From Chitinophagales bacterium (lineage in GTDB: Bacteria > Bacteroidota > Bacteroidia > Chitinophagales > LD1): DNA of 32,918 nt. Shown piece by piece: positions 10,555-32,918 of this stretch. Both the position numbers and the translations under genes were made by a program. Position 1 is the stretch's first letter, and every line of letters starts with the position of its first letter. Where the stretch lies: assembly GCA_025057415.1 (NCBI GenBank), contig JANWXI010000025.1, positions 1-32,918 of the forward strand, read 5' to 3'. The notes below the pieces were generated by a model. The model did no database searches. It was given only the letters and a program-made list of their open reading frames with translations, and had not been told where the DNA came from.

Positions 10555-11538
10555 TCAAAAATACTTGATAAAACGTGGGGTTACAAATCTTTTCTTGTCA
10601 AACCAAAAGTCATATCCCAACATAATTTCGTGTGTACCGCTTGTGTATCTCCTTAAACCGGATATTTCAGCGTCATACGCATAACCGACTTGCAGTTGCG
10701 GGGTAACTTTGAATTGTGCAAAAGCAATAATGGCCTGACCCGGGTTATGAAATCCGCTCGTTTCGGTGCGATAACCGGCTCCTATCCAAAGCCGGTCTAT
10801 GAACAACAATGCCAGGTTAGCATCAAACTGGGGTATATTCTTAGGTAGGCCTTTTTGCCATTTCACTAGAATCGTTGGCCTGAATTTCACCACTGATGCA
10901 TCTTTTCCGAAAACATAACCAGCCGTAAATACATAAAAATTATAGACACGGGCAATTTCATCTGTGTACTTAACTATTCTTGTCTTTTTAGTTAAAGATG
11001 ATGGCATCAGATGTGGGGCAGATACGCCTACAAAATACCTAAGGCCGTAGGCATATATACCAAAACCCACATTGGGAACAAAAAGGTTCTCGTTAAGATT
11101 AAAAGAGTTGTCGGGGTTTTGAGTCGGTAATATAGCGCGCCCGTTATTTTGATAAAAATAGTTGAAAGATGTTTGAATGCCGAAACACAGGCGATTTTCC
11201 CTCGGTAAGCGCAAGCGGTATGCAAAGGCAGGCGTTACACTGAAATTGTTACTCAGCCCGAGGCGGTCGTTTGAAATCGTTAGTCCCAATGCATATTGAT
11301 CTTTGCGAAAGGGTGTGTGCACACTTATGTTTGCAGTACGAGGTGCACCATCAATACCCACCCACTGGTGGCGATATATGCCCATCACGCTGATTACCTC
11401 GCGGCTGCCTGCGTAAGCCGGATTGACAAACAATCCGTTAAACATGTACATACTGTAGGCGGCATCCTGCTGAGCATACATACCCGACAAGAACACAACC
11501 ATTCCAAGTAAGGTTAATAATGTCTTTTTCATATTCAT
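10555..11538 (-). CDS. PorP/SprF-family outer-membrane protein
   Basis: The frame is open from 11592, but the likely start is the ATG at 11538 (MNMKKTLL) or 11532 (MKKTLL). From there a normal signal peptide begins (MKKTLLTLLGMVVFLSGMYA, cleavage before QQDA), and the upstream residues would cover an intergenic hairpin. The product of about 327 residues shows family hallmarks: SMYMFNGLFVNPAYAGSRE near the mature N-terminus, RHQWVGIDGAPRTANISVH, and a C-terminal HEIMLGYDFWF ... RFVTPRFIKYF. Members are outer-membrane barrels. SprF is needed for export or surface attachment of SprB in Flavobacterium, and PorP is a T9SS component in Porphyromonas. Its position directly after a type B cargo gene fits a dedicated partner role for that adhesin. 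The spacing to the giant gene is about 66 bases. Confidence 0.93.
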   Translation of the reverse strand: MNMKKTLLTLLGMVVFLSGMYAQQDAAYSMYMFNGLFVNPAYAGSREVISVMGIYRHQWVGIDGAPRTANISVHTPFRKDQYALGLTISNDRLGLSNNFSVTPAFAYRLRLPRENRLCFGIQTSFNYFYQNNGRAILPTQNPDNSFNLNENLFVPNVGFGIYAYGLRYFVGVSAPHLMPSSLTKKTRIVKYTDEIARVYNFYVFTAGYVFGKDASVVKFRPTILVKWQKGLPKNIPQFDANLALLFIDRLWIGAGYRTETSGFHNPGQAIIAFAQFKVTPQLQVGYAYDAEISGLRRYTSGTHEIMLGYDFWFDKKRFVTPRFIKYF

Positions 11539-11564
11539 TGTTTTATTTATATGTAAGATTGCCC

Positions 11565-11592
11565 GTGCCCTACGATACATATCGCAGGGCAC
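11565..11592 (-). promoter_or_regulatory. Intra-operon hairpin between adhesin and PorP/SprF genes
   Basis: GTGCCCT (11565-11571) pairs with AGGGCAC (11586-11592). After one A-C mismatch the inner CGAT/ATCG continues the stem around a four-base loop; outer GCC/GGC bases (11561-11563, 11595-11597) may add pairs. No T-run follows on the minus strand, so full termination is unlikely. Its place just after the adhesin stop codon suggests an RNA-processing, stability or attenuation element that could set the ratio of the downstream proteins to the giant protein. Confidence 0.55.
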
Positions 11593-14600: not shown

Positions 14601-17600
14601 AAAGCACGCTAATGTTATTCGCATTACCCTCTGGATCACTGTCGTTAATAAGCACGGGGATCTGCACGGTTTGCTCTTCGCAGGTAGCCGCTGAATCGTT
14701 GTTAGCTACAGGCGGTTGATTTATATGGAGGAATACCGTGTCTCGTGTTACACAACCTACAGAATTGATAGCTGATGCTATTACACCTACATCTACTCCC
14801 ACGGGGCAGTAGTTAATCGGTGTTAACGACGATGTGATAACACCACCTCCAAGCAACGACCATTGAATATTCAATACATCCAAACTGGCACTGGGTGTAA
14901 GGGTAGTACAGCCACCCTGGCAAACCGTATCATGAGATGCAGTGATATTGAGGGTAGGTGCAGTTTTTATACCAATGGAAACATTCGTTGAGTTTGTACA
15001 GCCCGTTGTCGGGTCGGTGTAGGTATATGTAATAACATTATTGCCGATGTTGGCATTGGTGGGACAGAATATATTGCCACTTATACCGGGGCCACTGAAT
15101 GTACCACCGGCGGGTGTACCGGTGAGTGTAACACAAGGATCTGATTGACAGTAACCATTCTGGTTAAATCCTGAAATAGAAACTGTGGGTAGAGGATGTA
15201 CGGTAACACAGATAGTTGTATCATCCGAACAACCGTTGCCATCCACATAGGTGTATTTCACACACCAGTTACCCGGACCTGCAGCTGTAGCCTGGAAAAT
15301 GTTACCTGTCACAAATGGACCGCTAAAGGTTCCCCCTGCCGGGATACCCGTCATAATAATGTTACCTGCGTTTTGACAGTATTGGGTGTTAAGACCGCTG
15401 ATGCTGGCAACCGGAGCAGTGTTTATGATAACAGATGCTGTATCAGCCGCCTGACATCCGTTCTTATCAGTGACAACAAGTGTATAAGTGCTGGTGGCGG
15501 TGGGGCAAACCAATACATTCAGGTTGAGCGGGCTGCTATTGATATTAGGACCGCTCCATTGATATGTGAACGGAGGTATGCCGTTGCCGCTAACGGAACC
15601 ATTAAGTGTAACACATCCCCCTACGTTAGAGCAAATAAACTTATTCGGGCCTGCATCAACTAATAAAGTTGGCGGGTTTACTGTTACCGTAGCACAACTT
15701 GGTAGTGAAGAGCATCCAAAAATATCGGTGACCACTACACAGAATTGTGTGGTATTACCCAGATTGCTTACCGTAGGATTGGGTAAAGTGGGATTATTCA
15801 AACCGGCAGAAGGCGTCCAAAGATATGTGTAAGGCCCTTGAGTACCTGAGCCGGTGGGGGAACCGCCAAGTATAGCGCTGTCAGAAGAACATGCAAATAT
15901 AGAGTGGTTAGGACCGGCATTTGCAACAGGCAACTGCCGTACATTGATATTCACCGAACCACTGGCAGAGCAACCCAACGAGTCGGTTACGATAACGGTA
16001 TATGCAACATTGAAAGTTACATTCTGTGCAGTCGGATTAGGTGAGGTTGAAGAAGTGAGGAAGTTTCCTGGCGACCATTGATAATTCAATGTACCTGTAC
16101 CGCCTAACCCGGTTGGGTTACCGCCAAGTACAATAGATGAACCGCTGCACACAGAGGAGTTTGCTCCTGCATTGACACCTATACCAGGGCTTACATATAC
16201 GGTGACCGTATCTGCTTTAAAGCAGCCAACTGCATCAGTTACAGTTAAAGCATAGCTGGTTGTAACTGAAGGATTGGCGCATGGATTAGGTATGTTGGGA
16301 TTGTCTAAACCCTGTACAGGACTCCACTGGTAAATGTATGGAGGAATACCCCCGGTTACAGACGGGCTACCGCCAAGTGATACACATCCGTTGCTGTTAG
16401 TACAGAACACTTTGTCAGGTCCGGCATTGACTTGCAGCGATGTTGGAATCACAGGAATCACTACAGAGTCCACGGCAGAACAACCTGAGGCGTTGTCGGT
16501 CACGGTTACGTAGAAACGGGTCGTTACCGTTAGGTTTGAAACAATCGGATTCGGTATTGTATAGCTATTAAGGTTGTTTCCGGCAGGAACTTGTGCCCAT
16601 TGGTAGCTGTAGTTACCTGAACCACCGCTCGCTGTCGGCTGACCACCGATTGTTACAAATGATCCGCTGCAAGCGAACACATTAACTGATGGGCCTGCAT
16701 CGGCAGTAATAGATGGATTAACATACACCGTTTGACAAGCAGATGAGGAGCAACCAACCGCATCGGTAACAGTTACACAATACGCAGTTGTAGCTGCTGG
16801 GGTAGCAACAGGATTTGCAGCCAAAGTACTGCTTAGGCCGGTACCAGGCGCCCAATTAAATGAGTAGGGCGGTGTGCCTCCACCGGCAGTGGATGGATTA
16901 CCACCCAGGAGTGCGGCTGTGCCGGAACATATAGCTGTATCCGGTTCAAGAATAGCCGTAACAGCCGGGTTGGCAAATACCACCATTGAGTCAATTGAAA
17001 TACATCCGTGCGCATCTGTTACGAGCAATACATACGTGGTAGTATCGGTGGGGTTAACATCCGGATTAATTATAGAATTGCTGTTGCAGATACCAAACAC
17101 AGGGCTCCAGTCAATCACATAAGGTTGAGTACCCCCTGTTACACTACCATTGATAGTAATGCAGTTTGATTGTCCGGCACAAATGCTGCGGTCCGGACCG
17201 GCATTGGCAACCAGGGTGTGATTGGTCACCGAAACAAATACCTCATCTGTAGCCGTACAACCGTTAATATCGGTTACGGTAAGTACGTAATTAGTACTAG
17301 TTGATAGGTTACATGCCTGCGGATTCGGTAAACCGGTATTATTAAGACCCGCTGCAGGCGCCCAGGCATAGAAGTACGGAGGAGTGCCGCCCGTGGCAGT
17401 AGGTGAACCGCCCAAAGTAACACATGCCAGCGGGCACGACTCGATTACCTTGTCCGGACCTGCATTAGCAATAGGTTTCTGATTAACCCTAATGGTCACG
17501 TTTGCAGAATTGCTACAACCGATAGAGTCAACCACCAACACCTGATAGGTGATAGTGCTGGTAGGACATGCCAGCGGGTTAGCTGTATTGGGCGAGCCAG

Positions 17601-20600
17601 TGATGAATAACGTTGGTGTCCAAGAGTATGAGTAAGAAGATGGAGAACCTGTTCCACTATGGGCAGTGGGTTGACCACCCAGTTCCACACATGCTCCGGC
17701 ACAAACGGTATCATTAACTCCGGCGTTCACTACAGGGCGAGGGTTAATGGTTATGCGTACCGTGTCTGTAGCAATACAACCCGATGCATCAACTACTACA
17801 AGGAAGTAAGTGGTAGTTACTGCAGGTGATGTAACGGGATTTGGACTGTTTGAAATGAATCCCGGTGGAATTGATGTCCAGTTGTAAGTATATGGGTGCG
17901 TTCCGCCCTGCGCTGTAGGTGAGCCACCCAATGTTACTAATACGGAGGTGCCGGCACAGAATGAAATATTGTTGCCTGCCTCTGCCACCAGAGTAGGGTT
18001 GTTTACCGTTACATTAACCAAATCTGATGCAGAGCAACCATTGTTGTCGGTTACAATTACTGTGTAATTAGTAGTTGAACCCAATCCTTTTACGTAAGGG
18101 TTAGCCAAATTGGGGAAGAATACACCAACAGAGGGTAACCACTGATACGTATAAGGCGGTGTTCCACCAGTAGCGGTTGGTGAACCACCTAACATTACGC
18201 TGTCTTGTGAGCAGGCAGTAAGTGTCTTATCGGGACCTGCATTAGCAATCGGATTGGGGTTAACCGTAACAGTCATAGAGGCAGTAGCAGTACATGCGCT
18301 GGCATCCGTCACGGTTACAGTGAATATGGTTGTACTGGTTACACCAACTATTGGGTTAGATGCTATAGAGCCGTTAGACCACAGGTAGTTGTATGGGCTT
18401 GTGCCACCCGAAGCTGTAGGATTACAACCCAGTCGAACTTTACCACCGGAGCATACAGCCGTATCGGCTCCGGCACAAACCTCCGGCGCCGGATTGACGG
18501 TAATTGTTACTGAGTCATAAGCAATACAACCTTTGCTGTCAACTATCGTGAGGTAGTATGTAGTAGTTGACGCAGGTGAAACCACAGGATTAGAGCCAAT
18601 TAAGCCGCCTGACCATATATACGTGTATGGTGGCGTACCTCCCACCGCAGTAGGAATACCTCCCAGCGTAACAGATGTAGATGAACCGGCACAGATAGCT
18701 GCATTATTTCCGGCGTTAGCAGATAAGTTGCTCGGTACAACGGTCACCACAACCGCATCCTCAGCAGTACAACCATTAGCATCCGTTACCTTTACAGTAT
18801 ATAGTTGTGAAACATTTAATCCGGTTGCTTTAGGGTTAGGGATGTTTGTTGCATTAATACCTACAGCAGGTGACCAGTTGTATGTATAGGGTGGTGTTCC
18901 TCCGCTGGCAACCGGAGATCCTCCCAGAGTAACGGTGTCTTTAACACAAGGCGTAATGATTTTGTCGGGTCCTGCATCTGCAATCGGATTCGGGCGTACG
19001 GTTATAGTAACAGCATCCGAGGCAGTACAGTTGTTGCTGTCGCGAACCGTAACGATGTAAGTAGTGGTTACCAGTGGGCATGCCAACGGGTTAGGTGTGT
19101 TGTTGGCGTTCAAACCTACTGTCGGTGTCCATGAGTATTGGAGCGGAGCCGTACCGCTGCTTCCGGTAGGGTTGCCGCCTAATTGTACACAGAATCCCGA
19201 GCAGATTATGGTGTCAGCTCCTGCATTGGCCACCGGCGCCGGATTGAGATTGACACGAACCGAGTCAAATGACGTACAACCTTTTGAGTCAGTAACGGTG
19301 AGGTAATAGGTAGTGGATGCGGTAGGAGTAACCACCGGGTTAGCCAGGTTGCTGGTAAAGCCGCCGGCGCCTACCCAAGAGTAGGTGTAAGGTGGTGTAC
19401 CTCCCGAAGCTGTCGGATTTCCACCGATAGTTACCGGAGTTCCTGCAGCAGCACATACAGCAGCACCGTTACCGGCATTCGCTTGCAAAGTGTTGGGGAT
19501 TACATTTACTACTACAAAATCTACCCCGCTACAACCGAAAGCATCGGTTACCGAAATTTGATAAGATGTAGTGGTTGTAAGGCCTGTTATACAAGCATTT
19601 GGCACAGTAGGATTAATGATACCTGTGGATGGTGTCCAGAGGTATGAATATGGCGGAGTACCGCCGGTAACGGATATGAGGAAGCATGCTGTATCGCCAA
19701 CACAATTTACAAGATTCTTATCTGCACCAGCATCCACCACAGGATTACTGCGCGGTGTAACGACTACATTGTCGGTAGCTGTACATCCTTTACTATCCGT
19801 TACTGTTACTGTATATGTGGTGACTACAGGAGGTGTTGCAGTGGGGTTAGGAATGTTAGGGAAGTTTAATCCGGTAGTTGGCGACCATGTATAAGTGTAC
19901 GGCGGTGTACCGGATGAAGCGGTGGGTGCACCTCCTATTACTACAGGTTTACCCAAGCATGCAGATGTATCTGGACCGGCATTGGCAATCGGGTTCGGAT
20001 TTACTGTAACAAGCACTGATCCTGTTGCCGTACAACCTTTCGCATCGGTAACTACCACAGTATATGTTGTGGTAACTGATGGCGTAGCTGTCGGATTTGT
20101 AAGGGTGGGGTCGTTCAACGGGCCGCCGGACCATAGTACAGTGTAAGGAGGATTACCACCGTATATCAGGGGAACACCGCCTAACTGCACAGATTGACCC
20201 TGGCAAATTTGTTTATCGCTGCCAATGTTTACAAACAGATCGTTTGGCAACACATTCACGGTAACCGCATCGGTAGCCGTACAGCCACTTGCATCGGTTA
20301 CGGTGAGGAAGTATGTAGTAGTTACTACCAGGTTTTTAATAACCGGACGAGCCACGGTATTCGGTGTAACGAATCCGGTATTGGGCGACCAAGCGTAGCT
20401 ATATGGCGGCACACCACCGGTAGCAGTTGGGATATCGCCTATTATTACACTATCGTTCGGGCAGAAGGTAATGTCTTTATCGGGGCCTGCATGCGCTGAC
20501 GGTGAAGGACTAACTGTAATTTGTATAGCATCAGCAGCGCTACAACCGTTCGCGTCAGTAACAGTAACAATGTACGTGGTTAAAGCAGGCGGGGTGGCTG

Positions 20601-23600
20601 TCGGATTAGCAGCAGAAATGTTGCTTACACCAACTGTGGGTGACCACTGATAAGTGTATCCAGAGCCGCTACCACCTGAAGCCGTGGGAGATCCGCCAAG
20701 TTGGGCAGGCGACCCAGCACAAACGGTAGTATCGTTGCCTGCGTCCACAAACACAGCCGGATAAACGGTAACCGTAGTTGAATCAACCGCTGTACAACCA
20801 AGTTGGTCTGTAACGGTGAGTACATAAGTGGTAGTAGTTGATGGGAATGCAACAGGATTGGCAGGGTTGGTCAGATTGAGGTCGGTAGTGGGTGACCATG
20901 AATAAATATATGGAGCGTTACCTCCCTGAGCGGTCGGGAAGCCACCCAGTATTACAGTGGCGCCACTGCCCAAACATATCTGACCACCAGTGCCGGCCTC
21001 TGCACTGAGTGTAGCAGGCACAATCGTTACTAAAGCGGCATCGGTTGCCGAGCATCCTGCCGCATCAGTTACCGTAACGGTGTAAGTAGTGGTAGCAGGT
21101 ACAGCACATGCTACAGGGTTTGGCGCAGTAGTGTTGTTCAAAGCAGTTGATGGGCTCCATGCATACGTTAGTTGACCCGTACCTCCTGATCCGGTGGGAG
21201 AACCGCCCAGGTTGAAGCAACTAGCTGAACAGTTCACACCGGTGTGATCCGGACCGGCATCGGCAACCACTCTCGGCCTTACTACAACGGTAGCAAAAAT
21301 GGTTGAAGCGGCACATCCGTTGTAGTTGCCGTTAATCGTATAAGTAACTGTTTGATTGGTAGTGCTGTTGTTGAACGGGCTATCATTGATTACCGAAGTA
21401 TTTCCGCTGTTGCCTGAACTGCTTGTCCAGGTTATGTTGGTTCCCGGTACAGTAGAACTTACATTAATCGTAATGGGTGTGCCGCTGCAGACGGTCTGCG
21501 TACTCGGGTTGGCTGTAAGTACTGGTCTTGGCCTTAATGTTACATTCACATTCAAAGGTGTGCCTGTGCAGCCGTTTGCTGTTGGCGTAATGGTGTATGT
21601 AACCGTAATATCTGTTGTACCATTGTTGACAGGATTATCGCTGATGGGCGATCCGGTGCCGCTTGAACCGTTGCTACCACTCCAACTGTAGGTAGTGCCC
21701 GGTAAATTTGAAATCAGGTTAATCAGTACATTATCACCGGAGCAGAACGATACACCGTTCACAGAGGCGGTAACAAATGGACGGGGTCTGACGGTTACCG
21801 GTATGTTGATGGTCGTACTGGCACATCCACCGGGGCCCACTCCGGTTACCGCGTAAGTAACCGTGATATTGGAAGGCGTATTGTTGACTAAGGTGGTATG
21901 GATGTTACCGGTACCGTTCGTGCCATTAGAAGCAGACCATGTAAAGGTGGTTCCCGGGATGTTAGAAGTGAATGTGATATTTACACTGTCATTACTACAT
22001 ATCGTAAGTGAAGATACAGAAGGTGTGATGGTAGGATTACCGTAAACATTTATGACTGCCATTGCTGTATCGCAGAGTGAGGGCGAGCCATTATCGCAAA
22101 CGCGATAGATAAGCGTATCGCTGCCGTTAAAACCAATGGTAGGCGTGTATAGATATATTCCCAGCGAACCGGCAGTAAGCGTACCGTTAGAAACATTTTT
22201 AATGATAGTTACCGAACTCAAAGCATTGCCGTTAGGATCATAATCATTTTGCAAAACATTAAGTTGAACACTGGTGTTGCTGCAGATAATTTCAAACTCA
22301 TCAGCCGCTACAGGAGGATCGTTCACTTTGGCTGTAGAGTCGGTAGAAACAAAGATTACGATAAAGGCGTTGTCGCAGAGCGGTTTAGGCAGTTTAGTAG
22401 CCGCGGGGTCACATATAGTATAGCGAATGGTGTCATAGCCAAAGAAGCCGGTGTTAGGCGCATAATTGATAGTACCGTTCGGGTTGATGAGAAATGAGCC
22501 GTTTGCCGGAGCGCCGGTAACAGTAACTTGCAGCGGGTCGCCATCCGGGTCATAGTCATTCGCCAACTGATTGATTACAATAGGCGTGTTCTGCGGAGTG
22601 GTAACGTAATCGTTGCTGGCTACCGGTGCGTGGTTCACCAACGTATCGCCACCGGGCAATACGGTTACAATAATTACAGCCGTGTCGCAAAGTACGTTTA
22701 CAGGGAACGGACTCAAATCGCATACGCTGTACGGGATAGTTAGTGTGCCCGTAAAGCCGGGGTTCGGGTACACATTGATAGAACCATTACCAGATATAGT
22801 GAAAGTACCGCCGCCAGGTATAACGCCAAAGTATGTGTAGGTGAGCGGGTTACCTTCCGGATCACCGGTGGCGGCAGCTACATTTACCCCAATAGGTTGG
22901 TTTTCAAAAGTAACTACCTGTATGGTGTCAGCAAAAGGCGGATCATTTACAGGAGTTACGTTGATGGTAACATAAGAGGTATCGCAAAGCACGGGATTGC
23001 CGTTATCGCAGATTACAATACACAGTTGGTCAGGTCCGTTGTAGTTTATACCCGGAGTATAAGTAAAGCACAATACATCCGTAGCTTGGTTGATGGTTAA
23101 ACCACTCACGGTGCCCCATTGTGGCGGGCAAAGCAGGGTGCTGGTGTGGGTGTTGGCGCTGCCATCATTATCCGTGAAGGGGATGCACACTGTTACAGGT
23201 ACATCTTCCGGTGTAGTAACGGTGGTGTCGCGAATAACAGGTTGATCGTTTTGTGGCACCACATTGATGGTAACACAGGCCGTATCGAACAAGAACGGTG
23301 CCGGTGTGCCACTGTCGGTAATGCGGTAGCAGAATACATCGGTGCCACTGAAGTTCGGATTCGGTACATAAGTGAACGAACCGTTCGGATTGAGTGTGAG
23401 GGTGCCGTTGCTCGGGCCGCTTACTACACCGGCAACAGATACAGTTGTGCCGTCAGCAGGGTCGCTGTCGTTTGCCAAAACACCCGGCGCAGGGATGGTG
23501 AGTGGTGTATCCTCATTAGTTGTGTAGCTGTCATCATTAGCTACCGGCTGGTCGTTTACAGGTGTAACGTTGATATTGATGATGGCATTGTCACATTGGA

Positions 23601-26600
23601 AAGGAACACCGTTGTCACATATCGTCAAGCAAATCGCATCAGAGCCGTTGAAATTAGGATTCGGTGTATAAGTGAGGCACACTGTATGCGGATTAGTGCC
23701 GTTGTTTACTATCGGACCAAAGGTGATTGTGCCATTATCGGGTGCGTCACATATTGTTACCGTGTGGATTTGCGTTGCGCTTTCCACGTCAATAATCGGT
23801 AAACATACGGTAATCGGGTTGTCTTCGGGTGTAGTAATCGTAGTGTCGTTCACTACGGGCGGATCGTTTACGCTAATTACATTGATGGTAACGCAAGCTG
23901 TGTCAAAGAGGAACGGCGCCGGGGTGCCCGCATCGGTAATCCGATAGCAGAATACATCTGTGCCATTGAAGTTCGGATTCGGTACGTAAGTGAAGGAGCC
24001 GTTCGGGTTGAGCGTAAGTGTACCGTTGCTCGGACCGCTTACTACTCCTACTACCGTTACCGGTGTGCCATCCGCTGCATCGTTGTCATTCGTCAATACG
24101 CCCGGAGCAGGGATGTTAAGCGGTGTATCTTCATTGGTAGTGTAAGCATCGTCATTAGCAATCGGTGGATCGTTAACCGGTGTAACGTTTATTTTCACCT
24201 TCGTGGTGTCGCAACGGGTAGGTGTGCCGTTATCGCATATTACTATACACAAGCTATCGCTGCCGTTGAAGTTCGGATTAGGGGTGTAAGTGAAGCACAA
24301 CTGGTCGAATATGTTATTCACCGTCAATCCGCTGATGGTGCCATTTACCGGGCTGCACAATAATGTAGCGGCATGCAGATCGCTGGGGTCGTTATCGGTG
24401 AAAGGAATACATACGTTGATAGGTACATCCTCCGGTGTGGTAACCGTAGTATCGCCAATTACAGGAGGATCGTTCTGCGGCACAACGGTGATAGTAACGC
24501 ATGCCGTGTCAAACAGGAATGGCGCCGGTGTACCCGCATCGGTTATCCGGTAGCAGAATACATCCGTGCCATTGAAGTTTGGATTCGGTACATAAGTGAA
24601 AGAACCGTTCGGGTTGAGCGTAAGCGTGCCGTTGCTCGGACCGCTTACTACACCTACTACTGATACTGCTGTACCATCGGCAGGGTCGCTGTCGTTGGCC
24701 AATACACCCGGAGCCGGAATGTTTAGTGGCGTATCTTCATTGGTAGTGTATGCATCGTCATTAGCTATCGGCTTATCATTCACCGGTGTAACTGTAATCT
24801 TAATCTTAGTAGTGTCGCAACGGTTAGGAGTACCATTGTCGCAAACTACTAAACAGATAGAGTCAAGGCCGTTATAGTTCGGGTTGGGGTTGTAAGTAAC
24901 ACAAACCTGGTTGGTAGGCAATGATACAATAGAAGTAGTATAGGTACCGTTATTCGGACCACACACTGCTCCGGCCACATAGTACGACTGACCTGGGTCC
25001 ACATCCGTAATCGGCAAGCAGGTAGTGATAGGACAATCTTCGCAAGTGGTGATAGACGTATCCGGTACAACAGGCGGGTCGTTTACCGGTGTTACCGTAA
25101 TGAATACAAATGCCGTATCGCACTTCACTGGTGAACCGTTGTCGCATATTCTATATACAAAAGTATCTAAGCCGTTAAAGTTAGGATTGGGGGTGTATGT
25201 AAACGAGCCGTTGCTGTTTAAAGTAAGTGTGCCGTTGCTGGGTCCGGTAATTTGGGGTGTGGAAACTGTGATGATGCCGCCATCCGGATCAAAGTCGTTA
25301 GCCATAACACCGGGGGCAGAGATTGTCAGTACTCCGTCTTCGGGTACGGTATAGTTGTCATTATTCGCTACCGGAGGTACGTTCACACAACGATAGTCGA
25401 GCACGGCCGTAGCAGTATCACACAATACCGGAGATCCACCATCGCAAACCACATAAATAAATGAGTCAATACCATTAAACAGAGGGGATGGTGGTGTATA
25501 GGTAAATGCGCCAGTGCCGGAAATAGACAGGGTTCCGGAGAATGGTCCGGAGATGGTGCCGAAGAAGCTGAGCAGAGGTCCGTCAATGTCTATGTCATTA
25601 GCCAATACATTACCTGTGATGTTAGAGCCGGTACAATTAGTATAGTAATCATCGTTAGCCACCGGCTTGTCATTCACCGGAGTAACATTGATAGTTACAA
25701 TAGCAGTGTCACAGCGAGCGGGAGAACCATTATCGCATATCACTAAACATACTTGGTCTGTGCCGTTGAAGTTCGGATTGGGGGTGTAGGTGAAGCAAAC
25801 TGTGTGGGGGTTAGTGCCGTTATTTACACCCAAAGTACCTCCCAGTGTGCCATTGGCAGGCCCACCACACTGGGTTACGCTATGCAACTGTGTAGCTGAC
25901 TCGGGGTCTGTGATGGGCAAACATACGGTAATAGGAACATCTTCCGGTGTAGTAACGGTGCTATCACGAACTACCGGTGGGTCGTTTGTACAGTTCACCG
26001 TAATATAAGCTGTGGCATTAGCACACAAACTCGGTAGCGGAGTACCGGCATCACACACCGTATATACAAAGGAATCTTGTCCGCAGAAATTAGCATTGGG
26101 AGTATATGTAAACGAGCCGTTACCGTTCAATACTAAAGTGCCATGTGAAGGCGCTACAAACGGAGTAGTGTTCACCGTAAGTGAAGTTACCGGATTGCCA
26201 TCCGCAGCATCGTTGTCGTTGTTGCGCACTCCGGTGCTAACGGTTGTTACTAACGGTACATCTTCATTGGTCGTGTAATTGTCGTTTACTGCTACGGGCG
26301 GGTCGTTTACAGGCGTTATGTTGATGGTTATACGAGCCGTATCGCAACGTACCGGGCTTCCGTTGTCGCATACTACCACACAAACCTGGCCTGAGCCGTT
26401 AAAGTTAGGGTTGGGAGTATATGTTAAACAAACAGTGTGGGGAATGGGGCCGTTATTGACACTTAATCCACTCACAGTACCATTGGTAACTCCACACAAT
26501 GTAGCATTGTGCAACTGAGTTGCCGACTCCGGATCAGCTATTGGTAAGCATACGTTGATTGGAATATCTTCGGGTGTAGTTACCGTAGAGTCGTTCACCA

Positions 26601-29600
26601 CCGGTGGGTCGTTAATGGGCACTACGTTTATAGTAACACAAGCGGTATCGCAGGCGGCAGGCACCTCGGTATCGCAAACACGATAACAGAACACATCTGT
26701 ACCGTTAAAGTTAGGGTTAGGTGTGTAAGTAAAAGAGCCGTTCGGGTTGAGGGTAAGCGTACCGTTAGACGGACCACTTACCGGTGAAGTGGAGACAGTC
26801 AGGGGTTGTTGAGGATTAGCCGGGTCAAAATCGTTAGCCAGCACTCCGGGGGCAGATACGGTGAGTGGTACGTCTTCGTTGGTAGTGTAGGTATCGTCAT
26901 TAGCAACAGGAGGACAAGAATTTACCACCGCATTCACGGTAGCAGTGTTGGTACTGGAACATCCGCTCACAGTAACCGTAAGTGAGTAAACTCCGCTCAT
27001 GCTTGGTGTAGCGTTTGGACGCACCGGATTTTGTGCAGATGAGGTGAACCCGCCCGGTCCGGACCATGAGTATGTAGCACCTGATACCGTTGAAGCGAAT
27101 AATTTTAAGGTATCTCCCCAACAACGCGGGCTGTTTGATGTGGGAGTAGGAGCGGTAGGGGTTTGATTAACAGTAAGGAAAACAGGAGCTGACGATTGCG
27201 AAACACATCCGGTGACGGTTTGTGTTACAGTATAGTTACCTTGGTTGCTGAGCTGAACATTGTTTAACACGACAGGATTTCCGGTAGCGCTGAACCCCGG
27301 ACCAGACCAGTTAAATACTGAGCTTGGAGCGCCGGATGCTGTGAATGTTACGTTTTGTCCCGTACAGGCCGGGTTTGGATTAACACTGGTAATGATGGGT
27401 GGAGCCGGAGTAACATTAACGGTTACGGTTACCTGAGCAGTGTCAGAACTGCAACCATTGAGTGTTTGATACAAATAGTACGTTCCGGCATTTACAAGTT
27501 GCACATTAGTAATGGTAGGGTTCTGCAATGTGGAACTAAATGAGTTAGGGCCAAACCAGTTCCAGGTAGCAGAGCCGTTACCAGTACCTGTAAGATTGAG
27601 TGTTTGTCCGGTACATACAGGATTGGGGAAAGCGGATGCAGTAGGTGGGGCGGGTTTCGGTAATACAACCACTGAAGTGGAAGCAGTAGCAGTACATCCG
27701 TTTCCGTCGGTAACGGTCAAAGAGTAAGTTCCGGCAAACGCACTAGTGGCATTTGGACGGGAAGGATTTTGTAAAGAAGAAGAGAAAGAAGAAGGTCCGC
27801 TCCAGTTGTAAGTGTAAGTTCCTGTACCTCCGCTGGGTGTAGCGGTAAGGTTGATAGTCCTGGTTTCGCAAACCGGGGAGTTACTTGATACTGTAACAGA
27901 TGGTGATGGGTTAACTGTTACGGATGTGGAAGCGGTAGCGGTACATCCGTTGTTATCTGTTACGGTTACCGAATATGTACCGGAGTGTGCGGTAGTAGCC
28001 GATGGCCTTGTCGGATTTTGAAGCGTAGAGCTGAATGATGCCGGGCCGGACCAAGCAAACGAATATGGAGTAGCGCCACCTGACGGAGAGGATGTGAGGT
28101 TAATGGTTGCCCCCGAACATACCGGTGAATTGCTACCGGCAGTAACAGATGGATTTGTGTTAACCACTACATTGGTGGAAGCGGAGCCGGTACACCCGTT
28201 CACATCGGTAATCGTCACGGAGTACGTGCCGGCATGGGATGTTTGAATATTGGGGCGTGTAGGGTTTTGACCCGTGGCTGAGTAAGAAGCAGGTCCTGAC
28301 CATGTATAAGTAAAGGGTGAATTACCACCCGTAGGTGTTGCGTTTAGATTGAGAGTTGCGCCAACACAAACCGGTGAATTACTGCTTGCAGTAACCGCAA
28401 CACCTGTGTTAACTACAACATTAGTAGAAGCTGTGGCAGAGCAACCGTTAAAATCAGTTACCGTAACGCTGTAAGTGCCTGCAAAAGCAGCAACTACGTT
28501 GGGGCGAGAAGGGTTTTGCGCAGAGCTACTGAAGGAAGCAGGCCCAGTCCAGGAATATGTGAAAGGCGATGTACCTCCGCTAGGTGTAGCGGTTAGATTA
28601 AGAGTCCCACCCACACACACGGGAGAATTACTGCCTGCTGTTACGGTTACGGCAGGATTTACAACGATACTTGTAGTTTGCGCGGAGGCAGAGCAACCAA
28701 AGTTGTTCGTAACGGTTACTGAGTAAACACCGGAGTGACTGGGTTGTGCGTTCGGACGGGTAGGATTTTGGTCTGTTGAAGTGAAACCGGCTGGACCCGA
28801 CCAAGAATAAGTAAATGAAGTGCCGCCGCTGGCAGTTGAGTTGAGCTGAATAGTAGTGCCGGCACAATACGCTGCACTGCTGCTGCTTGCGGTTACAGTA
28901 GGCGATTGGTTTACAGTGATGCTTTGAGTAGAGGCGCTTGCTGTACATCCGTTAGCATCGGTTACGGTTACACTGTAAACGCCCGAGTGGTTCGTTTGCG
29001 CATTGGGGCGTGTGGGATTTTGAGTAGATGCCGTAAACGAAGCGGGTCCTGTCCAAGAGTAACTAATGGGTGTGGTTCCACCGGCAGGTGTACTACTGAG
29101 TTGAATAGTTTGCCCTGTACAGTATGTGTTGCTGCTACTGCTTGCCGTAACTGTAGGCGTGGGGTTTACAGTTACGTTAATAGTGGCGGGATTAGAGGTG
29201 CAACCTGCCACAGTTTGAGTAACACTGTAAGTACCACCATGAGCGGTAGTAGTAATATTTCGGGTAACAGGCGCACCGGAAGCAGTAAAGCCGGCAGGAC
29301 CGGTCCACGACAAATTGGTGCCGGAAGCATTGAGCGTCAAAACACCGCCAACGCATATCGGGTTGGGTGAAGCCGTAACGTTAGTGGGTGGGGGCGGTGT
29401 AGCTGGGTCTGAAAGGTTAAACGGACCAGCAAGCGTGTTGGAGTTACACCCTCCGATGCTTACGAATATGCTAGAGTAAGTACCGGCATTAAGCCCACTG
29501 ATAACTATCTGCCCGATAGAATTGGATGTTAAGTTGAAAGGGCCTTGAGGAGTACCGTTACGGGAATAGCTTACAGCGTAGTTGGTATTTGCAGCCAGCC

Positions 29601-32051: not shown

Positions 32052-32918
32052 TTAAAAAAGTAACCCCTGTGATAGATTTGCGTCTGGTGGAGGTTTTGCC
32101 TCATCAAAGGGTTTATCCAGCCAACGCTGTAATTCAATCTTCACGAATAGATTTAACCGGATAAACGCTACCAGATTTGATAAATGCCAGTTGTATTTGG
32201 ATAGGGCTTTGAGGGCTTTTAGGATAAGAATGGTAATTAGAGCCGTCCAGATTTGAATCAGTACTGCATTTTCGGAGGTTCCGATGAAGGACTGGATGTG
32301 CAATAGCTGTTTGATTTCCCGGAAAAATATCTCTACCTGCCAGCGGCATTTGTAGAGTTGGGCAATGGTGCTGGCTGCCCAGTTCATTTGATTGGTAATC
32401 AGTTCAATTTTTTGTTGATTAACCTCATCCCAAATCATTACCCGCCTGAGGGGTTTGGGATACTTTTCTTTTGATGCTTCGTGCTTGAGTTCAATGATTT
32501 GGTCAACTAACAAATGTTGGTGTTGCTTTTCGGGCAGGTCTAACTCCCGCACCACATCAAATTGCAGGTTGTCTTTATGCCGAACAACGAAGAATACGCC
32601 TTTGCTGTCCCAAATGTACAGCAACGGAAAATCGTTGTAAAATCGGTCGGCAACCATCACGCTCCCCCTCAGCAAGGGAATGTCTCTGGCTGCTTTGTTA
32701 TCGGCTGTTTTGCCATCGCTGATATGAACATAGGCGGGCAAATTACCGTCAAAATCAAGCAGGGTGTGCATCTTAATAGCGCCTTTGGTCGTTTTATACC
32801 GCGCCCAGTCAAACAAACTCAGGCACAAACTAATGGTAGTGGAATCCAACAGAAAAATCTTGCTCTTGATTTTGAACTTCACCTGCTTAAACCTTGCTTG
32901 CTGTCCTAATTGTTCTAG
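32052..32918 (-). CDS. IS4-type DDE transposase, 5' part beyond the window
   Basis: The frame is open through the right edge. The GTG at 32880-32882 is internal, because the codons before it (LEQLGQQARFKQ) remain open and continue the protein. The 289 visible residues hold the catalytic core: first Asp in FLLDSTTI, second Asp in VMVADRFYND, and the YKCRWQVEIFFREIKQLL block with the catalytic Glu (the YREK-like signature of IS4 transposases). The expected N-terminal domain of about 100 residues should lie outside. No stop or frameshift is seen in the visible part, so the element may be intact. It is transcribed in the same direction as the giant operon, so read-through into it is possible. Confidence 0.88.
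   Translation of the reverse strand, partial: LEQLGQQARFKQVKFKIKSKIFLLDSTTISLCLSLFDWARYKTTKGAIKMHTLLDFDGNLPAYVHISDGKTADNKAARDIPLLRGSVMVADRFYNDFPLLYIWDSKGVFFVVRHKDNLQFDVVRELDLPEKQHQHLLVDQIIELKHEASKEKYPKPLRRVMIWDEVNQQKIELITNQMNWAASTIAQLYKCRWQVEIFFREIKQLLHIQSFIGTSENAVLIQIWTALITILILKALKALSKYNWHLSNLVAFIRLNLFVKIELQRWLDKPFDEAKPPPDANLSQGLLF

Follow-up and report, generated by a model that had tools for sequence, protein, structure and literature searches.

To our knowledge, how the giant proteins of the type IX secretion system (T9SS), strings of domains thousands of residues long, keep their reach and resist pull is poorly understood. We analyzed a 32,918-nucleotide stretch of DNA from a Chitinophagales bacterium (contig JANWXI010000025.1 of assembly GCA_025057415.1; hereafter the window, taken at its full length), in which one gene encodes a protein of this kind, and in particular an array of 23 PKD-like units within that protein. 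From sequence comparisons, we consider it highly probable that the array is a daisy chain in which disulfides join each domain to the next, supplemented by variable internal staples.

The best PDB match, by sequence (E 1.3e-97) as well as by fold (E 2.2e-26; query template modelling score, TMq, 0.53-0.67 for a two-unit model), was grappling hook protein A (GhpA) of Aureispira sp. CCB-QB1 (9flp and related entries), for which a heptameric form is described (PMC11205867). Like the window protein, GhpA is a giant chain of PKD-like units, and its better-scoring hits recurred every 248-249 residues over residues 1705-2700, close to the three-unit repeat of the window array. The extender domains of RTX adhesins (e.g. 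MhLap and AhLap) form long beta-sandwich arrays with linkers stiffened by bound calcium (PMC7493085); there the calcium sits in the linker, whereas we propose for the window array a disulfide lock between turns of neighbouring domains. In cytophagalysin CPL1 of Cytophaga, which has eight Ig-like domains, a disulfide (C140-C434) is predicted to join adjacent domains (PMC11674741), but that single bond would tie the catalytic domain to the first of the Ig-like domains rather than link like units in series.

Disulfides also matter in the SprB/SprF gliding machinery of Flavobacterium johnsoniae, in which a Cys-X-Cys tail on SprF links to GldK (PMC12635249). The window resembles that system in that the gene of a T9SS type B surface protein lies next to one for a PorP/SprF-family protein, its likely carrier. 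It differs in that a Cys-X-Cys C-terminal tail was not found in the window's PorP/SprF-family protein, which argues against a track-driven gliding adhesin, and in that the SprB repeat (PF13573) scored just below its cut-off of 28 bits (of three protein pieces, two gave 26.5 and 27.9 bits, and the third no listing). Among the matches listed in the open-access literature (titles and abstract openings), we found no description of a disulfide daisy chain of this kind.

Cysteine parity and covariation between neighbouring units

Every unit of the array carries two core Cys, C14 and C72, named here, like all Cys positions, by profile column of the unit alignment (Table 1). The Cys counts of units 1 to 23 were 4, 2, 2, 2, 2, 2, 4, 2, 4, 2, 2, 4, 2, 2, 4, 4, 4, 4, 2, 4, 2, 4 and 4; twelve units thus have two, 11 have four and none has an odd number, in exact agreement with both unit lists of an earlier note on this DNA that had claimed a two-or-four rule. 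When all boundaries were shifted jointly (-40 to +40 residues in steps of 4), no odd unit appeared at five of the 21 shifts (-28, -8, -4, 0 and +4), and 2 to 16 odd units appeared at the other 16, as expected because the boundary then crosses a Cys. A boundary artefact was therefore rejected as the source of the even counts. No other residue gave a comparable parity (frequent residues were odd in about half of the units, rare ones followed their low means and Trp was nearly always single), and a general parity effect of any residue was rejected on these counts.

We collected homologous units from loci of 60 genomes, the window's own included, and from further searches, keeping near-full-length matches of at least 40 bits and removing identical sequences. 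This left 510 unique units, the window's own among them; for units 15-18, the closest named matches were Chitinophagales metagenome-assembled genomes. By domain envelope, 492 units were even and 18 odd (16 odd after trimming). Fifteen odd units lack one core Cys (C14 in 11 and C72 in four) and none lacks both. We found that the next unit lacks C72 in five of the 11 units without C14, while CHU_C comes next in five and another kind of domain in one (L135, the least informative of these units). Among the four units without C72, two are the first domain after the signal peptide and two follow a domain without C14. These flanks led us to propose that C14 of each unit bonds C72 of the following unit, a rule that all 15 units fit.

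We examined neighbours on a larger scale with a broader profile, which yielded 1365 full domains from 130 loci and 935 unique adjacent pairs after hits below 15 bits or not near full length were dropped. C14 of unit k and C72 of unit k+1 were both present in 915 pairs, both absent in eight, and C72 was present alone in 12; C14 was never present alone (P = 9e-15). In contrast, the corresponding counts (both, C14 alone, C72 alone, neither) within a unit were 897, 18, 20 and 0 in the same pairs (P = 1), and those for the reverse neighbour were 878, 39, 16 and 2 (P = 0.18). The phi coefficient was 0.628 at an offset of +1 and at most 0.285 at six other offsets. Shuffling within arrays gave a mean of 1.8 joint losses (maximum 6), compared to the eight observed, and a mean of 14.5 cases of C14 alone (minimum 7), compared to zero. 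By eye, seven of the 12 cases of C72 alone have a Cys in the linker after the unit and two have a misaligned C14.

The ends of arrays behave differently from their interiors. Of 30 units in last position ahead of CHU_C, 29 lacked C14, compared to 31 of 1213 domains with a non-terminal place in their open reading frame (ORF), and the lone exception has a linker Cys. Parity follows the same division (700 even and 22 odd interior units; 29 odd and one even last unit). A C14-C72 bond within the unit would not predict that parity turns odd next to the sorting domain.

In a first count of possible partners in CHU_C, a last unit was detected in 38 of 57 CHU_C-containing ORFs. C14 is retained in four of these last units: in L187 the unit itself ends in Cys, in L100 there is a Cys in the linker, and in L262 and L264 the CHU_C that follows has a Cys after GxND. 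A second set of 70 further loci, found with the last unit of L262 as query, contained 58 ORFs with CHU_C and 54 detected last units, all 54 with C72 and 50 without C14; 48 of the 54 were odd and six even. Here the partner rule was altered, in that the last two residues of the unit counted as linker and a narrower stretch of CHU_C was considered. All four C14-keeping last units of this set have GxNDC in CHU_C (P = 6.6e-4), 44 last units have neither C14 nor a partner, and six combine a linker Cys with the absence of C14; every one of these six has one or more Cys in CHU_C. As a pattern in its own right, we observed that a Cys directly after NxDGxND in CHU_C co-occurs with C14 in the preceding unit in L262, L264, L269 and L298.

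Predicted geometry and objections to the proposed chain of domains

AlphaFold2 models of units 12-18 (592 residues; predicted local distance difference test score, pLDDT, 91.1; predicted template modelling score, pTM, 0.49) and of units 13-14 (172 residues; pLDDT 94.7; pTM 0.73) were assigned secondary structure with the Dictionary of Secondary Structure of Proteins (DSSP). By these assignments, C14 falls at the end of the A' strand or in the A'-B turn, whereas C72 is part of the F-G turn. These two turns occupy opposite poles in the Ig-type topology. From this topology and the predicted strands, we infer that C14 would occupy the C-terminal pole and C72 the N-terminal pole of each Ig/PKD-type sandwich. 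C14 of unit k would then bond C72 of unit k+1 and staple neighbours along the array into a covalently locked rod, such that interior units would be even without any bond inside them. Some units would carry a second, true within-domain staple at a changing site, and the cost of an unpaired thiol to an exported protein would explain why extra Cys come and go in pairs. The type IX system would export the protein, and the adjoining PorP/SprF protein would probably hold it at the surface. By analogy with linker calcium in RTX adhesins, the staples likely stiffen or strengthen the long stalk, and a stapled chain could explain how so long a protein stays stiff. The disulfide bonds themselves are deduced from the sequences, and export, oxidation, stiffness and a role in adhesion are likewise inferred.

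We considered that all pairs, the core pair included, might instead be disulfides within domains, so that units would be self-contained with one or two internal staples. Ig domains usually have their bonds inside a single sandwich, and the even counts of every window unit and of 492 of the 510 homologous units would fit, as would the units in which both core Cys are present but no neighbour of the same family was detected (132 in the 130-locus set and 34 in the distant set described below), although most of these lie beside other Cys-bearing stretches. However, the joint loss of both core Cys expected of a within-domain disulfide occurred in only three of 1365 domains, compared to 104 that lost one (77 only C14 and 27 only C72), and the losses are matched in the neighbouring unit. 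Moreover, C72 is retained in last units, most of which have lost C14, and the two turns are predicted at opposite poles. Thus, we regard this explanation as unlikely for the core. The earlier note had read the even rule as a sign of within-domain disulfides throughout; that reading is supported for the extra pairs described below, but not for the constant pair, which covaries between neighbours and leaves last units odd.

Several observations weigh against a disulfide chain between domains. Three of the 12 cases of C72 alone stay without explanation, the 935 pairs include the loci that prompted the idea, and the eight joint losses amount to about four to five independent events (L065, L146 and L147 belong to a single orthologous family, perhaps with L071). 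Under a stricter partner rule, three of the four C14-bearing last units of the first count have a partner (L187 is not counted), as do three of the 34 without C14 (P = 0.009). The 70-locus set was collected with one of the genes that prompted the partner test, and two of its four C14-keeping genes (L268 and L292) are identical with L262 and L264, which prompted it; only L269 and L298 are new. We also examined 40 distant loci (L228-L267; 31 from the same class or phylum and nine from other families of the order), with 204 domains and 118 adjacent pairs. Here the neighbour counts were 116, 2, 0 and 0, too few losses for covariation, and two units with C14 precede a unit without C72 (L253 and L255). 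Distant last units before CHU_C lacked C14 in only three of five cases, compared to one of 155 other domains; C14 was kept in L262 and L264, both with a Cys in CHU_C. For C14 units without a detected follower, some Cys lies within the next 110 residues in 315 of 321 (130-locus set) and 72 of 79 (distant set), but there is none in four of 321 and seven of 79; the remaining two of the 321 are at the end of the ORF or locus. Finally, DsbB or VKOR was not found in 40 genomes, the window's own included, and DsbA-family matches occurred in seven of 20 genomes but not in its own.

Thus, given the exceptions in distant loci, the chain rule is firmest near the window's own lineage. We nevertheless think it reasonably likely, judging from the sequences compared, that surface Ig/PKD-type arrays of Bacteroidota are generally daisy-chained by disulfides between the A'-B turn of each domain and the F-G turn of its successor, capped by C72 loss at the signal-peptide end and by C14 loss at the sorting-domain end (or closed there onto the GxNDC Cys of CHU_C), with parity marking the chain ends and movable internal staples tuning the units. 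If so, a rule read from sequence would predict which Cys bonds which and where a covalent chain starts and stops, which is testable in genomes. It would also guide construct boundaries, since a single excised unit would carry two unpaired thiols. Such arrays would be a redox-made counterpart of the calcium-locked rods of cadherins and RTX adhesins, and dozens of bonds formed where no DsbB or VKOR was found would raise the question of the responsible enzyme. The giant proteins are in any case rich in paired Cys in spite of the missing matches.

Extra pairs at changing sites

The 11 four-Cys units of the window each add one pair to the core (Table 1). The earlier note had described a co-appearing second pair in units 1, 7, 9, 15, 16, 20 and 23, which we could refine to 18-55 in five of them, 20-53 in unit 7 and 18-53 in unit 20. 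It had also assigned a different pair to units 18 and 22 and another to unit 12, and these correspond to 63-77 in both units and to 4-23, respectively; unit 17, which it left unclassified, has a fourth type (18-45). For 18-55 as for 20-53, the two column numbers add up to 73, as would be expected of rungs on a single antiparallel ladder.

Extra Cys also come in twos among the 510 units, with none in 403, one in a single unit, two in 104 and four in two. When columns were permuted (2000 shuffles), a mean of 156 units were odd (minimum 129), compared to the one observed with an unpaired extra Cys. C18 occurs in 75 of the 510 units, and its partner is 55 in 57, 45 in 10 and 53 in eight; further sites in relatives are 36-50, 46-49 and 2-29. 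With alignment variants merged, we counted about ten column pairs, which bears out the suggestion that one fold offers several alternative staple sites.

Since units share descent, comparison of orthologues is a better control than shuffling. We compared 12 arrays from 11 genomes (eight of 23 units and four partial, two of the latter from one genome), a total of 239 unit cells. The eight 23-unit arrays are colinear, with an identity of 0.617 at matching and 0.425 at non-matching positions. None of the 239 cells has an odd number of extra Cys, and at least 21 pair-state changes on 13 unit/pair combinations of the array tree left no cell with a single extra Cys; variants at columns 77 and 77.5 were merged before this count, and the tree has strong support on four of nine inner branches. 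At unit 7, for example, the pair is 20-53 in two arrays, 36-50 in three and absent in six. The claim that extra Cys are gained and lost in pairs thus extends to homologues, and the extra pairs behave as within-domain staples of variable site. The PhyloCys method infers pairing from tandem mutations of bonded Cys and assumes connectivity that is conserved in a family and not regained (PMC4498770). Unlike that assumption of bonds conserved or lost, this family has different pairs at the same unit in different species, and its Cys pairs appear to have been gained at different places in one fold.

We also asked how well copying of whole units, by duplication or gene conversion, would explain the even counts, with four-Cys units as mutual copies and nothing paired. 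The array has a higher-order repeat of three units (about 252 residues), in that units 1, 4, 7 and so on, 2, 5, 8 and so on, and 3, 6, 9 and so on are more alike (identity 0.459 compared to 0.413 between phases; as large in 0 of 10,000 permutations), and units therefore did arise by duplication. At the DNA level, Tandem Repeats Finder (TRF) found no tandem array. However, orthologous units hold their position across species, which implies little recent conversion, and pairs change inside units that stay orthologous, as unit 7 illustrates. In addition, four-Cys units are spread over all three phases, and 18-55 itself occurs in each phase class. We rejected copying as the cause of even counts on the orthologue positions and pair changes, and consider it very improbable. 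Equally far-fetched, in our judgement, is that the Cys bind metal or stay reduced as redox sensors, with pairing due to shared ligands: the missing DsbB and VKOR would suit this, but pairs whose sites change and that lack a conserved third or fourth ligand would make an unusual metal site, and the near-absence of unpaired extra thiols would fit oxidation better.

The giant protein and its neighbourhood

The 6743-residue protein comprises, by Pfam and NCBIfam and in order, a signal-peptide-like N-terminus (judged by eye), IgGFc_binding, Ig-like units, tandem-95/Big_9 units, the PKD-like array, further Big_9 units and a C-terminal CHU_C/T9SS type B sorting domain. CHU_C (PF13585) scored 82.2 bits at the C-terminus (cut-off 27), and TIGR04131 scored 44.7 bits (cut-off 35), which assigns the protein to type B sorting. 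K319L-like_PKD (PF22352) reached 142.7 bits (cut-off 27) over four stretches in the piece 17002-24501, which holds units 1-16 and part of 17.

The domains that flank the PKD-like array (Table 1), together with VCWDD ahead of the first Ig unit and NSC behind the last (both by eye), fit the proposed chain rule. Besides the nine adjoining Ig-like units, one further detected unit stands apart at 29674-29910, and the remaining ones were delimited by a hand pattern. Where the remainder of the protein was cut roughly by hand, 2 of 14, 0 of 16, 1 of 3 and 3 of 14 pieces were odd, several of the odd ones being partial cuts. The 16 of 16 even cuts are the tandem-95/Big_9 units at 21789-26920, several of which alternate two and six or eight Cys. 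The tandem-95 unit at 22027-22317, directly ahead of the PKD-type domains, has by eye a C14-like Cys (EIICSNTSVQ) that is missing there in most of its siblings.

Table 1. Positions of the features discussed, in window coordinates
Feature	Coordinates	Strand	Remarks
ORF, 6743 residues	11605..31836	minus	holds the whole PKD-like array
23 PKD-like units	15418..21270	minus	residues 3523-5473; core Cys C14 and C72 in each
Unit 1	21010..21270	minus	extra pair 18-55
Unit 7	19489..19743	minus	extra pair 20-53 (relatives: 36-50 or none)
Unit 9	18988..19236	minus	extra pair 18-55
Unit 12	18253..18489	minus	extra pair 4-23
Unit 15	17476..17736	minus	extra pair 18-55
Unit 16	17215..17475	minus	extra pair 18-55
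Unit 17	16963..17214	minus	extra pair 18-45
Unit 18	16711..16962	minus	extra pair 63-77 (F and G strands)
Unit 20	16183..16437	minus	extra pair 18-53
Unit 22	15667..15930	minus	extra pair 63-77; second Cys within insertion after column 77
Unit 23	15418..15666	minus	extra pair 18-55
PKD_5-type domain preceding unit 1	21271..21528	minus	C14-like Cys (by eye), proposed partner of C72 of unit 1
Domain following unit 23	15193..15417	minus	NGC Cys (by eye), proposed partner of C14 of unit 23
Nine adjoining Ig-like units with C14/C72 pattern	26920..29157	minus	same pattern as in the array
PorP/SprF-family membrane protein	10555..11592	minus	PorP_SprF 230.7 bits; adjoins the giant gene

Downstream of the giant gene lie the PorP/SprF gene, whose product is the likely carrier or anchor of the giant protein, and an OmpA/PorE-like gene. 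Upstream, an IS4-family transposase reading frame (32052-32918) runs off the end of the contig.

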